Shown here: positions 3,232-38,616 of the stretch, piece by piece
Numbering within the stretch: the stretch's first letter is position 1
Layout: each line of letters starts with the position of its first letter
Assembly: GCF_000336675.1 (NCBI RefSeq)
Contig: NZ_AOMB01000037.1
Location: forward strand, 1-47,081
DNA from: Halococcus hamelinensis 100A6
Lineage (GTDB): Archaea; Halobacteriota; Halobacteria; Halobacteriales; Halococcaceae
Length of the DNA: 47,081 nucleotides
Direction of reading: 5' to 3'
Notes under the pieces: generated by a model
Database searches by the model: none
Told to the model about the DNA's origin: nothing
Seen by the model: only the letters and a program-made list of their open reading frames with translations
Program-made: the position numbers and the translations under genes

Positions 3232-3606
3232 TCATTCTTTGGGCCGCTCATCGGAGTTGAGATCGAAGGAGACGTTCTGGTCTTTGTTCAGGTTGACGCT
3301 CTTGCCCTTCTGGCCCTGAGCGACGACGTCGTATTGACCCTGTGGCAGAGTGACGCTGATCTGGCCGGCACTGTCAGTGTAGCCGCTGAAGACCTGGTCT
3401 TTGGTCTTCTTGTTAACAACCGTAACGGGGACGTTGTCCAGAGCGTCACCCTCAGAGGAGACATCAACTCCGAGTGAGCGTTCACCCGAATGACCACCGG
3501 GATTCTCCTTGGCAAGGACTGTGAGATCGGTTGCAATTGGAGTGCTGATCGCTGTAAGTGCCAGAATCGTCGTAACGAGGATGGTTACTCGGATTTGCCG
3601 ACTCAT
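3232..3606 (-). CDS. Secreted protein with carboxypeptidase-regulatory-like (beta-sandwich) domain
   Basis: The product is 124 aa starting at MSRQIR (3606). Residues about 1-35 form an Arg-led hydrophobic signal sequence (VTILVTTILALTAIST) with no lipobox cysteine. The mature part is acidic and includes VPVTVVNKKTKDQVFSGYTD followed by a GQISVTLPQGQYDVVA strand-turn. That is the pattern of carboxypeptidase-regulatory/CnaB-like beta-sandwich modules often found in extracellular proteins. It is probably exported to the cell surface, and no catalytic residues are seen. The longer open frame adds seven Cys/His-containing codons before the signal and is rejected. The next gene downstream (3808-5472, same strand) is a separate membrane protein. 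Confidence 0.6.
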   Translation of the reverse strand: MSRQIRVTILVTTILALTAISTPIATDLTVLAKENPGGHSGERSLGVDVSSEGDALDNVPVTVVNKKTKDQVFSGYTDSAGQISVTLPQGQYDVVAQGQKGKSVNLNKDQNVSFDLNSDERPKE

Positions 3607-8467: not shown

Positions 8468-9731
8468 CACGGGGACGGTGGCCGACGACCAGCTCGCAGC
8501 GATCGACGAGGTCGTCGTCGTTGGAACCGGCTTCGTGGGTCTTCCACTCGCGTTGATGCTTGCCGAACACGGCAAGCAAGTGGTCGGGGTAGATATCGAT
8601 GAGAACCTCGTCGATGCGATCAACGACCAAACGCTCCATCTCGACGAGGAGCAACTACAGACATTGGTCGAAAGCGACCGGGTGAACGAACATCTCGAAG
8701 CGAGTACCACTCCGCGGACTGGTGACGCATTCGTCGTGTCGGTCCCGACACCCCTTGATGAGCAGACGAAAACACCTGACCTCACCTATGTCGTCAGTGC
8801 GGTCGAGTCCATACTCCCCTATCTCGAAGCGGGCGATCTCATCAACATCGAATCGACGATTCCGCCGCTCACCTGCGAGCGGACGGTCATACCGCTCATC
8901 GAGGAAGCCGGATTCGATGTCGGCGAGGAGATCCAGCTCGCACACTCCCCCGAACGTATCCTCCCTGGAAACGTCTTCGAGGAGATAGTCCACAACGACC
9001 GGATCATTGGCGGTGTCACCGAGGCCAGTCGACGCCGTGCTGCGAAGATCTACGAACCGTTCCTCGACGCAGAGACCTACTATACGGATCTGCTCTCGGC
9101 AGAGCTGTGTAAGCTCATGGAGAACACCTTCCGCGACGTCAATATCGCACTGGCGAACGAGTTCGCGCTCGTCGGCGAGCAGTTCGACGTGAACATGAAC
9201 GAGGTCATCGAGCTCGCCAATCATCATCCGAGGGTCGATATCCTCACTCCGGGTATCGGTGTTGGTGGACACTGCCTTCCAGTCGACCCGTGGTTTCTCA
9301 ACGACGCCAATCCGGAGCAAACAACGCTCATTACCAACGCCCGACGCATCAACGAACGGATGCCTCGGGTAGCCGCTCGCAAAGTGCGTCGTGCCGTCGC
9401 CGATCTGACCGATCCGCATATTCTCGCGCTCGGTCTAACCTACAAACCGGATACCAATGATATGCGCAACAGCGCGGCAGTAGCAGTTGCTGACGACCTC
9501 GACGCCGACGGGTACAGCGTAACCCGCCACGATCGGTATGTCGATGGAGATAGCTACTCCACCCTCTCGGAATTGATCGAACGAGAGGAACCCGACGTTG
9601 TCCTCCAGCTTGTTCCACATACAGAGACGGTCGCCGAACTCAACAGAATGTATTCAGATTTACGGGAAGATGATGTCCAAATACTCCAGTTCACTGGAGA
9701 GGATCCGCTCGATCCAACACAGCATGACTGA
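8460..9731 (+). CDS. UDP-N-acetyl-D-mannosamine / UDP-glucose dehydrogenase family
   Basis: This is a 423-aa member of the two-step UDP-sugar 6-dehydrogenases. The NAD loop GTGFVG is at 22-27. STIPP and the PERILPG block follow, then the dimer-helix motif ELCKLMENTFRDVNIALANE, with catalytic cysteine C272 in GVGGHCLPVDPWFL. The HCLPVDPWF form fits the UDP-ManNAc dehydrogenase (WecC-type) branch better than UDP-glucose dehydrogenases. It oxidises the C6 hydroxyl to a carboxylate, giving a uronic acid donor. The start is uncertain: TTG at 8460 overlaps the previous stop, and GTG at 8478 is also good. Its stop overlaps the next GT4 gene by 8 bp. Confidence 0.8.
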   Translation: MSDTGTVADDQLAAIDEVVVVGTGFVGLPLALMLAEHGKQVVGVDIDENLVDAINDQTLHLDEEQLQTLVESDRVNEHLEASTTPRTGDAFVVSVPTPLDEQTKTPDLTYVVSAVESILPYLEAGDLINIESTIPPLTCERTVIPLIEEAGFDVGEEIQLAHSPERILPGNVFEEIVHNDRIIGGVTEASRRRAAKIYEPFLDAETYYTDLLSAELCKLMENTFRDVNIALANEFALVGEQFDVNMNEVIELANHHPRVDILTPGIGVGGHCLPVDPWFLNDANPEQTTLITNARRINERMPRVAARKVRRAVADLTDPHILALGLTYKPDTNDMRNSAAVAVADDLDADGYSVTRHDRYVDGDSYSTLSELIEREEPDVVLQLVPHTETVAELNRMYSDLREDDVQILQFTGEDPLDPTQHD

Positions 9732-20943: not shown

Positions 20944-21174
20944 TCATTCGTCAGCTATGGACCACAGTCGAGCGTTCGCCACTTTTCTGCTTTTGACCTC
21001 GCCACTATCTTCAAGATGTCGGAGTTTCTTGTAGGCCGTATCGTAAATACAGTCCACCTGATCCGCGATCTCCTGAGTACCGCCCGCGCCACCAAGACTT
21101 TCGATCGCCTCAAGAAAATCGGCTGTAGAGTACTCCGCAGTATAACGGCCAGTATCTTGATCACGCTCAGGCAT
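20944..21174 (-). CDS. Winged-helix DNA-binding regulator, 76 aa
   Basis: The product is MPERDQDTGRYTAEY followed by a single winged helix: TADFLEAIESL, then TQEIADQVDC and IYDTAYKKLRHLEDSG, with the wing EVKSRKVANARLWS. This is a common haloarchaeal MarR/ArsR-like mini-regulator. The start at 21174 is chosen because this N-terminal GRYTxEY sequence is typical and a TATA-like box (TTATATC, 21204-21210) lies about 30 nt upstream. The gene points away from the zinc-finger operon at 21360, and the gap between holds a 16-bp inverted repeat. It is therefore the natural candidate to control that operon and itself. Confidence 0.75.
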   Translation of the reverse strand: MPERDQDTGRYTAEYSTADFLEAIESLGGAGGTQEIADQVDCIYDTAYKKLRHLEDSGEVKSRKVANARLWSIADE

Positions 21175-21203
21175 CGATAGGGTTTGAGGTAGCACTGTAA
21201 GTA

Positions 21204-21229: not shown

Positions 21230-21285
21230 CATCCATTACAATCACTTGGAAAGGCTTTTGCCTATACAGGTGGTTGTAATGGATG
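21230..21285. promoter_or_regulatory. 16-bp inverted repeat in the divergent promoter region
   Basis: CATCCATTACAATCAC (21230-21245) and GTGGTTGTAATGGATG (21270-21285) are reverse complements at 15 of 16 positions, separated by 24 nt. The spacer contains CCTATACA (21261-21268), a fair TATA box for the plus-strand operon, and a small internal stem AGGC-TTTT-GCCT. Placement between a regulator gene and its divergent operon suggests an operator whose two halves bracket the promoter. Confidence 0.6.
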
Positions 21286-21358
21286 TGAAGGCGGTGCTCT
21301 TGGGGTGTTACGATGCGAGAACGCCCGGATGCGCCAACATCCGAGCATAGGCCTTCAC
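21285..21358 (+). ncRNA. Candidate structured RNA leader with a three-way junction
   Basis: The plus strand can fold into four stems. P1 pairs 21285-21292 GTGAAGGC with 21351-21358. P2 pairs 21294-21299 GTGCTC with 21343-21348 (one G-U). P3 pairs 21303-21309 GGGTGTT with 21320-21326 (one G-U) around a 10-nt loop. P4 pairs 21327-21331 GGATG with 21338-21342 around a 6-nt loop. Only three bases are unpaired in the junction. It starts about 20 nt after the TATA-like CCTATACA and ends two bases before the GTG start of the zinc-finger operon, so it could be that operon's 5' leader. No known riboswitch, tRNA or ribozyme motif is recognised. Confidence 0.5.
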
Positions 21359-21359
21359 G

Positions 21360-21551
21360 GTGGATCGAAAGCCCATGCGAACTAACGAATCCGGCAGTCT
21401 TGAAACTGCCGACTGTTCAGGCGCACAGCCAAGCGAACGATGTGACCACTGTGGTCAGCCCACCGAGGAGGGCGATGGTCGAACCGAGTCGCTCCTTGCG
21501 GATGATGTGTTCTGCTCCCCAAAATGTGCGATGCGGGGTGCGCAAAAATGA
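21360..21551 (+). CDS. Zinc-finger mini-protein, first gene of a four-gene overlapping operon
   Basis: The product is 63 aa from GTG at 21360, or 58 aa from ATG at 21375. The N-terminal third is polar. The rest is one zinc-binding unit, CDHCGQPTEEGDG followed by DVFCSPKCAMRG, a treble-clef-like pair of CxxC knuckles ending in a basic helix. DNA, RNA or protein binding is possible, and the role is unknown. The stop overlaps the next gene in the ATGA arrangement, so translation is coupled. The structured leader at 21285-21358 lies directly before the GTG. A 7-bp hairpin (arms CGGCAGT and ACTGCCG, spaced by 6 nt) sits just inside the coding region. Confidence 0.6.
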   Translation: MDRKPMRTNESGSLETADCSGAQPSERCDHCGQPTEEGDGRTESLLADDVFCSPKCAMRGAQK

Positions 21552-21688
21552 GCACTTTCTGTGTCAGATGCGGGGTAGATATGTGGGAGTACAGTGACGA
21601 AGCGAAAGCGGATAGGTGGTGTATCGAGTGCGCTCCTGAGTGCTATACCGGCGGCATTCATATCGCCGCGTTAAGGGCAGTCGAATGA
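21548..21688 (+). CDS. Zinc-finger mini-protein, 46 aa
   Basis: It starts ATG at 21548, overlapping the previous stop by 4 bp, and ends TGA at 21686-21688. The sequence MSTFCVRCGVDMWEY...WCIECAPECYTGG shows two knuckles, CVRC and CIEC, with an extra cysteine three residues after the second and a short C-terminal helix (HIAALRAVE). This is the size and layout of haloarchaeal zinc mini-proteins carried on plasmids and integrated elements. Its stop overlaps the ATG of the next gene (ATGA at 21685-21688). The function is unknown, but the strict head-to-tail overlaps imply that the four products are made together. Confidence 0.65.
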   Translation: MSTFCVRCGVDMWEYSDEAKADRWCIECAPECYTGGIHIAALRAVE

Positions 21689-22032
21689 GTATCGATTCCG
21701 CTCCGGCGGCCGAGCAGTCCATTAGCGGGTGGAGTGTCGGCATCAACACGACCGCGTTCTGCCAGCGATGTACGAGCGATCTCGGTGAAGGAGATCCTGT
21801 CACTGTCTATGCCTATCGACCTGCCGAAGCACAGCGCGTCTCGGTCACACGGCTCTACTGTAGCGCATGCGACCATCGCCGTATCGAACATCCCGCACGC
21901 GGCTGCTATGAGTGGCTGGCGACAGCGCGACTCGTCACCACCTCCGATGTCACAACCCAATCGCACGGACTGATCCTCCAGGGTGTGGAGATACTCGACG
22001 AATGTGGCCCGAAGGAGGGCGGTAGACTGTGA
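21685..22032 (+). CDS. Zinc-finger protein, 115 aa
   Basis: It starts ATG at 21685 (MSIDSAPAAEQ). The centre holds FCQRCTSDLGEGDPVTVYAY, a strand-rich stretch, then LYCSACDHRRIEHPARG, so one Zn site is split over about 45 residues. The last 40 residues are an ordinary acidic domain (LVTTSDVTTQSHGLILQGVE). The pattern resembles haloarchaeal rubredoxin-like or HNH-adjacent zinc domains, but without catalytic residues that I can see. It overlaps both neighbours by 4 bp and is the largest member of the operon. The longer upstream frame from 21640 is rejected because the overlapping ATG fits the operon pattern. Confidence 0.6.
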   Translation: MSIDSAPAAEQSISGWSVGINTTAFCQRCTSDLGEGDPVTVYAYRPAEAQRVSVTRLYCSACDHRRIEHPARGCYEWLATARLVTTSDVTTQSHGLILQGVEILDECGPKEGGRL

Positions 22033-22215: not shown

Positions 22216-22941
22216 ATGCCCACAGACACAGCCACCGCTATCGACAGCACCGACACCATCGACACGGAATCGAGCGACGAACTCACCCAGTTGCTCCAAC
22301 GCGTCGAAGCCCTCGAAGCCGAGAACGACCGACTCCAAGCAGAACTCGACAGCGTCCACAAACAACACCGAGAGGACCACCACGCAGTAGCCCGCGAGAA
22401 CCACGACCTTCGAAAATCCAACGAACAGCTCCGAGAGCGCGTCGACAAAACCGAAGTCAAGGACAGCCACTTACTCGACGATATCATCGACCTGGAGAAC
22501 CAACTCACTGATCTCGAAGCGAGTAGCTCCACATCGGAGAACCAGAGTCAGGACACCAGTGCTCGCGACACGGAGCTAACTCCCATCGAACGCGTCGCGA
22601 AGCTCGGCAATGAGGGTACAGGCATCGAGGTCACGCCATCCATCGAACGGGCCGTCGCGATCTACGAACACTGGGACGAATGGGCGAAGAAAACGCCGAG
22701 GGGCCACGTCCTGAAGGATGGACTGAAGACCCTCCTCCGGACCGCAACGGGAGAGAAACTCGCCTGGCGACAAGTCTACCGCGCCGCGGAAGCGCTCGAA
22801 GAGCTCTCGAAAGGCCGGATCAAGTTTTTCCATCATGACCGTCACGGGAAGATGTTTCTCGAACCACCATTGGAAACGGAGCACGAGTGTCACTCGTCGT
22901 CAGTAGCCACGAAGGAGACCCCGTCAGCGAATCAGCTGTGA
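22216..22941 (+). CDS. Coiled-coil protein with C-terminal globular domain
   Basis: The product is 241 aa. Residues about 18-105 are a long heptad coiled coil (LTQLLQRVEALEAENDRLQ and onward), separated by a Ser/Thr/Gln linker from a globular part at about 120-225. The globular part contains TPIERVAKLGNEGTGIEVTP, SIERAVAIYEHWDEWAKKTP, KDGLKTLLRTATGEKLAWRQ and RAAEALEELSKGRIKFFHHD. The latter looks helical and winged-helix-like. Similar proteins occur beside small zinc-finger genes in haloarchaeal integrated elements and plasmids, probably as DNA-binding or partition-type factors (inference). It follows the mini-gene operon after 52 nt on the same strand and may be cotranscribed. Confidence 0.6.
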   Translation: MPTDTATAIDSTDTIDTESSDELTQLLQRVEALEAENDRLQAELDSVHKQHREDHHAVARENHDLRKSNEQLRERVDKTEVKDSHLLDDIIDLENQLTDLEASSSTSENQSQDTSARDTELTPIERVAKLGNEGTGIEVTPSIERAVAIYEHWDEWAKKTPRGHVLKDGLKTLLRTATGEKLAWRQVYRAAEALEELSKGRIKFFHHDRHGKMFLEPPLETEHECHSSSVATKETPSANQL

Positions 22942-24462: not shown

Positions 24463-24621
24463 CTAATTCCGGCGCTTCGATTTCGCTTCGCGAACGTCGC
24501 CACCGTCCCAAAGCATGTCAAGGCAATCAGGACAGATCTGGACAGTGTCCATTCCAGTCGGAGCGAATACACGAACATATTGTTGAGTAACGAACCCATC
24601 GCAGTTTTCGCAATTCGGCAT
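24463..24621 (-). CDS. DUF7563-like zinc-finger mini-protein, 52 aa
   Basis: ATG at 24621, TAG at 24463-24465. MPNCENCDGFVTQQYVRVF is followed by QICPDCLDMLWDG. It pairs one CxxC near the start with CPDC at mid-protein, around the YVRVFAP strand. This pattern matches a very widespread haloarchaeal mini-protein family (MPxCxxC, VRVFAP, CPxC). Its function is unknown. It lies between the dioxygenase gene, to which it is convergent, and the left end of the IS1341-type element. Confidence 0.7.
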   Translation of the reverse strand: MPNCENCDGFVTQQYVRVFAPTGMDTVQICPDCLDMLWDGGDVREAKSKRRN

Positions 24622-24880: not shown

Positions 24881-24924
24881 ATGACCAAACACAAACCATA
24901 GATTATTGTATGTTGTGCTCAAGG

Positions 24925-26181
24925 ATGGATCCCATGAGGCGGACCAACACCTTCGAGGTGGTTCCGATGTCCGAGGTGGACGAGGAGTTGCTTCGACGCG
25001 TGATGGACGCAACCGCTTCGCTGTGGAACGAACTCACCTACGAGCGGCGTCAGAACCTCTTCGACGGCGAATCCGTATGGGACACCGAGGATTACCGCAT
25101 GCAGTACGTCGGCGTCCTCGGCTCCGCCTCGGCACAACAGGCCATCCGAAAATCCGGTCAGGCGTGGCGCGGGTTCTTTGATTCGGACGAGGACGATACC
25201 GGTCTACCGGGCTACTGGGGCAATGAGGACGAGGGGCGTGAACTCCACTGGTTCGGTCGCAACGACCAGTACACGATCCAGTGGGGCGACCGCTCGCGCC
25301 TCGAAATCCCGGTCGGCAAGGACCTGAAGGACGAATACGACCTCACCGGACGCCTTCGCCTCGAAGTGCGCGGCGAGCCACGATGGGACGGCGAGCAGGG
25401 ACAACTGGAGATACAGTACGACGAACAGCGCGACCGATACAGGGCCTATCAGCCGGTCGAGGTGGACGATTCTCACCCCCGTCTCGGAACACCACTAGCC
25501 GACGAATCGGCTGCCCTCGATATCGGCGCGAACAATCTCGTCGCCTGTACCACCACGACCGGCGAACAGTTCCTGTACGCCGGGCGTGACGAGTTCGAGC
25601 GATTCCGCGAGACGACGCGCGAGATCGCACGCCTTCAATCGAAACTCCCCGAGGGACGGTACAGCAGTCACCGTATCCGCCGCCTCTATCGCAAGCGGAC
25701 CGCCCGCCGGGATCACGCGATGGAGGGGATGGCCCGCGACCTGATGGAGCGACTGCACGCCAGGGGAGTGGCGACAGTGTACGTCGGCGCTCTCACGGAT
25801 GTTCTCGAAACTCACTGGTCGGTGCGAGCGAACGCGAAGACGCACAACTTCTGGGCGTTCAGCGCGTTCATCGACCGTCTTGAAACGACTGCCGAGGAGT
25901 TCGGGATCGAGGCCGAAGAACGGTCGGAAGCGTGGACCTCGCAAGAGTGCCCGCAGTGCGGTTCGACCGACCGAACGACACGGCACCGAGACACGCTCAC
26001 CTGCGAGTGTGGTTTCGAGGGGCACGCAGATCTGGTGGCGTCCGAAACGTTCCTGCAGCGACACGCGGCGACGAAGCGATTCAGGCCGATGGCACGGCCC
26101 GTGCGATACGAGTGGGACAGCCAAAAGTGGCTGGAGTCACCACGCTCTCATCGTCCCAAAGTAGCGCGCACGAACCCATAA
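24925..26181 (+). CDS. tnpB: TnpB, RNA-guided nuclease of an IS1341-type element
   Basis: The product is about 418 aa from the ATG at 24925; the ATG at 24934 ([11 protein letters not shown]) is also likely. The N-terminal helical part has [12 protein letters not shown]. RuvC-I is [10 protein letters not shown] (Asp, codon at 25519-25521). The four-cysteine zinc finger is CPQCGS to CECG, and the RuvC-III region is [12 protein letters not shown]. The RuvC-II strand reads [11 protein letters not shown], with Ala where an acidic residue is expected, so cleavage activity is doubtful. TnpB proteins use a guide RNA from the element's right end to cut DNA at the donor joint and promote retention. No tnpA is nearby. 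Confidence 0.85.
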
Positions 26182-34364: not shown

Positions 34365-34592
34365 ATGCGAGCCGTTCGCTACCACGAGTATGGTGGGCCG
34401 GATGTCCTCGAAGTCGATGAGATAGACCGGCCAGTTCCCGATGTGGACGAGGTCCTCCTCGAGGTTCGGGCTGCAAGCGTGAACGCGGTGGATACGCGCT
34501 TCCGAGCGGGGACCTACGGTTCGGTTTCACTCCCAGGGATTCCAGGTGGTGATGCCGCAGGGGTCGTCGCAGAGGTCGGTGGGATAGAGTGA
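34365..34592 (+). pseudogene. N-terminal fragment of a zinc-type alcohol dehydrogenase / quinone oxidoreductase
   Basis: MRAVRYHEYGGPDVLEVDEI is followed by LLEVRAASVNAVDTRFRAGT and LPGIPGGDAAGVVAEVG. This is the start of a medium-chain dehydrogenase (quinone oxidoreductase branch), which normally spans about 320-340 residues. It stops after 75 residues, and the rest (NAD-binding half) is missing from the window. The protein could not bind cofactor, so it is a remnant. It lies just inside the left direct repeat, consistent with a rearranged boundary. Confidence 0.7.
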
Positions 34593-38568: not shown

Positions 38569-38616
38569 TTTTCCATCGGCAGTTACCTATAAGTGAATGC
38601 GAGATAATACTAGAGT

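Follow-up and report, generated by a model that had tools for sequence, protein, structure and literature searches.

We suggest that the DNA in front of a small zinc-finger operon of Halococcus hamelinensis 100A6 encodes one copy of a two-state 5′ leader RNA that controls translation of the first or early operons of haloarchaeal mobile elements, a reading to which we assign a probability of about 0.68. The stretch analysed, referred to hereafter as the window, comprises all 47,081 nt of contig NZ_AOMB01000037.1. Transcription would begin at or beside the first base of stem P1, and the RNA would form a three-way junction, with P1 closing the abutting stems P3 and P4. In state A, the 3′ strand of P1 would be paired with the 5′ strand of P1, so that the junction is locked and the region before the start codon is free; in state B, the same 3′ strand would pair with a second copy of the 5′ strand and form a hairpin (P5) against the AUG. 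Translation of the first gene would be allowed in state A and hindered in state B, although we infer both the effect on translation and which of the states is on. A ligand, a protein bound to the P3 and P4 loops, or the speed of transcription could favour one state and thereby switch expression. The element is found opposite a small repressor-like gene, where the early or first operon of viruses, plasmids and islands begins, and would supplement the repressor-controlled promoter with an RNA checkpoint. In Haloferax, a synthetic switchable helix that masks the start codon controls translation (PMC8241225).

Folding of the element returned the four stems P1–P4 and the three unpaired junction bases at the positions first drawn for them (Table 1). 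The 74-nt element has a minimum free energy of −37.1 kcal/mol, compared to −22.7±2.9 kcal/mol for 200 dinucleotide shuffles, none of which matched it (z = −4.92), and it is recognised by a covariance model built from 101 aligned copies (R2; match at 21286–21377, 19.8 bits, E = 2e-5 with 701 bases searched). None of 4227 Rfam 15 families matched at the gathering score in the window or at 14 homologous loci, and an E-value search of the window gave just chance-level miRNA matches (E of 0.35 and above), so the absence of a known family reported in the initial annotation is borne out. A tRNA-like RNA was considered as the identity of the element and rejected, as ARAGORN recognised no tRNA or tmRNA cloverleaf there. 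The nearest relative, L003, from another genome of the same genus, has the same layout and differs from the window at five places in 74 nt (one insertion in the junction, three changes in the P3 loop region, and one inside P3 where U-G is replaced by C-G), all of which leave P1, P2, P4 and the 7-bp P3 stem unbroken. Three other copies (L244–L246) were found with R2 in the genome of the window itself; these leaders precede one gene for a SWIM-type protein and two genes whose products start with MQHHDLVALE.

Table 1. Features of the leader locus in the window and further leader copies in the same genome
Feature	Position	Strand	Size, basis or remark
Divergent small winged-helix regulator gene (phrog_18890, transcriptional regulator)	20944..21195	-	83 aa; PHROG E 7.8e-17
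12-bp inverted repeat, arms 21230-21241 / 21274-21285, flanking the TATA-like box	21230..21285		opposite-strand self-match
TATA-like box TATACA	about 21263-21268	+	seen in sequence
Three-way-junction RNA domain	21285..21358	+	fold, family covariation, R2 match
P1	21285-21292/21351-21358		8 bp
P2	21294-21299/21343-21348		6 bp
P3	21303-21309/21320-21326		7 bp
P4	21327-21331/21338-21342		5 bp
P1 3′ strand segment GGCCTTC, alternative partner of the pre-ATG segment	21350..21356	+	
Pre-ATG "anti-P1" segment GAAAGCC, 3′ arm of P5	21367..21373	+	
ORF1, CxxC zinc-finger-like protein with module-typical start MRTNESGSLETAD...	21375..21551	+	58 aa; homology, N-terminal comparison
Conserved coding-region motif CGGCAGTCTTGAAACTGCCG, self-complementary	21392..21411	+	nucleotide conservation
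ORF2, CxxC protein	21548..21688	+	46 aa; ORF frame, start inferred from ORF1 overlap
ORF3, C4 zinc-finger protein, query for homologous operons	21685..22032	+	115 aa
Coiled-coil protein, last gene of the operon	22216..22941	+	241 aa; similar coiled-coil ORF follows in L004
L244 copy	contig C5:59966-60043	-	R2
L245 copy	contig C30:149020-149095	-	R2
L246 copy	contig C3:4845-4919	+	R2

The GTG at 21360, which had been taken for the start of the operon, was rejected as a start codon: this triplet is GCG in L003, and the covariance model, built from loci other than that of the window, aligns its ATG to 21375–21377. GTG 21360 is therefore unlikely to open ORF1, whose start we place at 21375, and the leader does not end two bases before the start codon as proposed, but runs on to this ATG. 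The TATA-like box ~20 nt upstream of the element is indeed seen in the sequence and places the predicted transcription start on the first base of P1 or close to it. The inverted repeat on either side of the box is probably the operator of the divergent regulator. Its right arm had been described as directly followed by the element; the two do adjoin, but the last base of the arm (21285) also belongs to P1.

Homologues of ORF3 were detected by protein search in 124 of 391 haloarchaeal genomes. Upstream DNA was inspected at 30 of these loci, selected by protein homology with no use made of the structure, and most have the same architecture in a different sequence immediately ahead of the first gene's ATG (for example L004 (GGACACCCACG...CGTGGGCAGTCC), L014, L034 and L038); three (L027, L031 and L032) are apparently without a leader. 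RNAfold produced the three-way junction in most of 26 such leaders and an alternative hairpin before the ATG in several others. A covariance model built from seven leaders (R1) matched 179 of the 391 haloarchaeal genomes, spread over 62 of 86 genera (E ≤ 0.01), often with several copies per genome, in a sampled set that is biased to one type of leader because the seed of R1 consisted mostly of copies with a GAGAAGC pre-ATG arm. R2 matched 13 of the 18 genomes of the family to which the window belongs (E ≤ 0.1), and across a sample of 295 genomes of the phylum all the matches listed fall in its own order. A strict sequence pattern gave seven matches in genome contigs, one of them in a planctomycete and lacking the rest of the leader, and a DNA match in genome G177 (L008) was dismissed as a chance match within an unrelated region. 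Distant blastn against plasmids gave no match, and a protein search matched 14 plasmids; leader copies are present on pHTUR03 and on plasmid 2 of Halalkalicoccus jeotgali. Halobacterium salinarum DSM 3754 also carries a copy (L073).

The leader sequences were too different for MAFFT and RNAalifold, which recovered 4 pairs from the diverged set, and a covariance model was used instead. In the 101-copy alignment, which is biased towards the structure because it was fitted to the model, 19 of 20 pairs vary on both sides (360 double-change cells) and 95.9% of cells pair, compared to 28–59% in a control with the partners slid by 1–3 columns. The compensatory changes in P1–P4 that had been named as the way to check the structure are thus present, decisively, at the level of the family. 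Of 122 non-redundant leaders folded without the model and with the terminal bases up to and including the ATG removed, 117 formed the three-way junction, versus 9.8% of shuffles (mean z of −4.1); as most of the 122 had been found with the model, the protein-found set serves as a less biased check. We conclude that the three-way junction of this family is an RNA structure under covariation. The folded strand is the transcribed plus strand, as G-U pairs outnumber A-C in the stems (111 versus 44). P3 and P4 follow each other without a spacer in 107 of 117 leaders, the P3 loop is 55% A, and the P4 hexaloop carries U at position 2 in 62/66 and A at position 6 in 59/66.

The element had been presented as the leader of a zinc-finger operon, which it does head in the window; elsewhere it also precedes many unrelated first genes, which rules out a zinc-finger-specific leader. 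Crude k-mer clustering yielded 52 first-gene clusters with no shared body downstream of the leaders, and the products include SWIM-type, C2H2-like and CxxC proteins, a tyrosine recombinase and uncharacterised proteins. What the first genes have in common is an N-terminal start of the form M-S-T-x4/5-E-K/T-R/V/S, fading past about residue 14, and, at the DNA level, an A-rich coding motif at +25 to +30. Since the start is shared while the gene bodies differ, we regard the leader together with the first dozen codons as a transferable module. Of 117 leaders, 112 have an ORF of 50 aa or more that starts no more than 330 nt upstream and diverges from them; many of those ORFs shown encode winged-helix or "LLTEREREQ"-type small proteins, and some are not gene-like. 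Across 112 leaders there is an AT-rich peak 25–30 nt upstream of the P1 5′ end, the position expected if transcription starts there. Both the divergent small regulator and the typical N-terminal start of ORF1 were found in the window, where the CGGCAGTCTTGAAACTGCCG motif sits near the position of the A-rich motif of the family; a 22-mer at this motif is identical in two further genomes (G002 and G003). In the window and its relatives the same stretch could form a small coding-region hairpin (CGGCAGT-loop-ACTGCCG, 21392–21411). Within the first ~40 nt of the genes after 52 leaders, the A-rich motif reads GAAAACGxTwyCGG and resembles the A-rich P3 loop. One locus, L167, has three leaders in less than 1.4 kb with one ORF each, two starting with MQTSNT-x-x-EK and one with MTYSTTTEEK.

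Most leaders carry, just before the ATG, a second copy of the 5′ strand of P1, which offers the 3′ strand of P1 an alternative partner and allows P5 to form. P1 and P5 compete for the outer half of this 3′ strand and are mutually exclusive. P5 is at least 5 bp long in 98 of 117 leaders and shorter in the other 19; among the 98, it overlaps P1 by 3 or more nt in 97 and stops 0–1 nt before the ATG in 88. The P5 helix that a leader forms with its own segment averages 6.1 bp, compared to 4.4 bp when differing segments are swapped in from other loci (permutation p ≤ 5e-4), and the protein-found leaders taken by themselves give 6.0 versus 3.8 bp (n=22). There are 45 different shared strands, nearly all of which pair both ways, with the P1 and P5 partners following each strand (e.g., GCTTC with GAAGC and GAAGC, GGTCT with AGACC and AGACC). 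We conclude that the mutually exclusive pairing is kept by covariation in the family. The median energy difference between the two states is −2.7 kcal/mol, with P1 favoured, and they lie within 5 kcal/mol of each other in 74 of the 98 leaders, in energies computed for standard conditions rather than molar KCl; leaders of the L034 and L038 type exemplify balanced states. The initial proposal of a structured RNA leader regulating translation is the best reading of the element; family covariation supports the structure, and the regulation itself is what we infer.

The copy in the window is a weak representative in this respect. Its P5 (GGCCTTC/GAAAGCC) consists of six pairs and one C-A mismatch, as opposed to the perfect P5 of L244 from the same genome (GGCTTTC/GAAAGCC), and P5 is likewise weak in its nearest relative. 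This is most simply explained by the replacement of a P1 U-A pair with C-G in the window, at the cost of one P5 pair. State A (−41.0 kcal/mol) is favoured over state B (−28.1 kcal/mol) by about 13 kcal/mol, so that this copy may be almost fixed in state A or may retain little of its switching.

Leaders of this type are also carried by cultivated viruses. Virus BJ1 (L191, AM419438) has two copies, at 9559–9636 (E = 4.9e-5) and 3506–3600 (E = 0.0022), and in both a winged-helix gene lies opposite and a P5 arm precedes the ATG. The second copy contains position 3547, the valine codon at which BJ1 ORF7 is annotated to start; the likely start is instead the ATG at 3598. Virus CGphi46 has two copies (E = 9e-7 and 5e-6), about a dozen IMG/VR contigs contain the leader, and the region of phiCh1 that separates the repressor from ORF49 was matched marginally (E = 0.019). 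T4 and T1 are early-lytic transcripts of Halobacterium virus phiH (Stolt and Zillig, cited in PMC6210493). The experimental T4 start of phiH1 at 34556, as annotated in record MK002701, coincides exactly with the base at which a long stem begins, and this stem closes a three-way junction (z = −6.5); as predicted for the family, the junction opens at the transcript start, here directly opposite the repressor gene repR. R2 found no significant match in the T4 leader, and phiH1 is assigned on architecture and position. The phiH1 leaders differ from the family in being longer (151–174 nt) and having extra hairpins, and in T4 a long extra stretch separates the junction from the ATG. The start of T1 at 38582 (AGAGCA...) is likewise the start of a long stem, and a copy of AGAGC recurs before the ATG. 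This T1 leader (L190, 38582–38735), in which the 5′ strand of the first stem is repeated before the ATG, is covered by the antisense RNA Tant. The genome paper of phiH1 (PMC6210493) does not mention a leader structure.

What decides between P1 and P5 could be a host or element protein bound to the junction, a sub-case of the two-state leader that we consider possible and put forward tentatively. The conserved A-rich P3 loop and P4 hexaloop would be the binding site, and many first genes encode small zinc-finger proteins, one of which might be the binder; however, the first genes are so diverse, with their 52 clusters, that no single downstream product would serve as the common binder, which leaves room for a host protein. 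Another sub-case, to which we are less inclined and which we consider rather unlikely, is a strict small-molecule or ion riboswitch whose ligand sits in the junction and stabilises P1. Riboswitches usually have a P1 that closes a three-way junction and whose 3′ strand has an alternative partner, the layout seen here together with conserved loops, but the downstream genes form no metabolic pathway, the interior of the junction is little conserved, and there is no ligand candidate. Near-isoenergetic states could also shift with growth conditions with no ligand involved, as in a temperature or salt sensor. Although the small median difference between the states (under standard conditions, not molar KCl) and the 12-fold gain in switching capacity of the synthetic Haloferax switch from 3 to 4 M NaCl (PMC8241225) point this way, a purely physical sensor needs no conserved loops, and we find this explanation improbable. 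We give similarly little credence to a leader that acts as a 5′-end stabiliser only, with P1 at +1 shielding the mRNA from 5′ exonucleases and the pre-ATG repeat incidental: P1 does lie at the mapped +1 in phiH1 T4, and generally ~25–30 nt past the TATA-like peak, but the co-varying pre-ATG arm is left unexplained. A DNA-level element (operator palindrome, recombination or packaging site, or single-stranded DNA hairpin) is very improbable despite the palindromic stems, the adjoining inverted repeat and the mobility of the elements, given the excess of G-U over A-C pairs, the fixed position between promoter and start codon, and a P5 that ends 0–1 nt from the ATG.

To our knowledge, natural cis-regulatory RNAs are scarcely known from archaea. 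The two-state leader proposed here has the architecture of a known kind of regulatory RNA, and the RNA family is apparently undescribed. As in translational riboswitches of the anti-P1, sequestering type, a P1 strand is exchanged with a hairpin at the start codon; unlike them, the family heads genes of mobile elements, is not in Rfam and is without a known ligand. The archaeal fluoride (crcB) riboswitch, described in one paper as the sole natural archaeal riboswitch determined experimentally (PMC8241225), is similarly a natural 5′ leader switch, but it serves other genes, and the Rfam search of the window and 14 homologous loci gave no match to it. The S15 ribosomal leader of Halobacteria (PMC7247131) is likewise a structured haloarchaeal 5′ leader known from comparative genomics; it differs in preceding rpsO rather than the genes of the family, and the loci searched have no Rfam match. 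No description of the element was found in the open-access literature searched, a scope outside which the subscription phiH papers of the 1990s fall.

One RNA architecture with very strong covariation thus stands before the first operon in many mobile elements of haloarchaea, cultivated viruses included. We think it fairly probable that these viruses and plasmids share a natural two-state translational switch RNA of a class not described before, which occurs in about half of the haloarchaeal genomes sampled, travels as a module with the first ~12 codons before unrelated genes and contributes an RNA decision step to the lysis/lysogeny-type control region known first from phiH. If this is true, early-gene control in archaeal viruses includes an RNA layer open to immediate testing in Haloferax volcanii, and the leader is a ready-made expression part as well as a marker for proviruses and plasmid control regions.

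PADLOC returned weak coiled-coil and CARF-like matches and nothing more. In the window, a gene for a small DUF7563 zinc-ribbon protein lies at 24463–24621 on the minus strand, and a TnpB gene (OrfB_IS605, Cas12f1-like TNB domain) is located close downstream of the operon, at 24910–26181.
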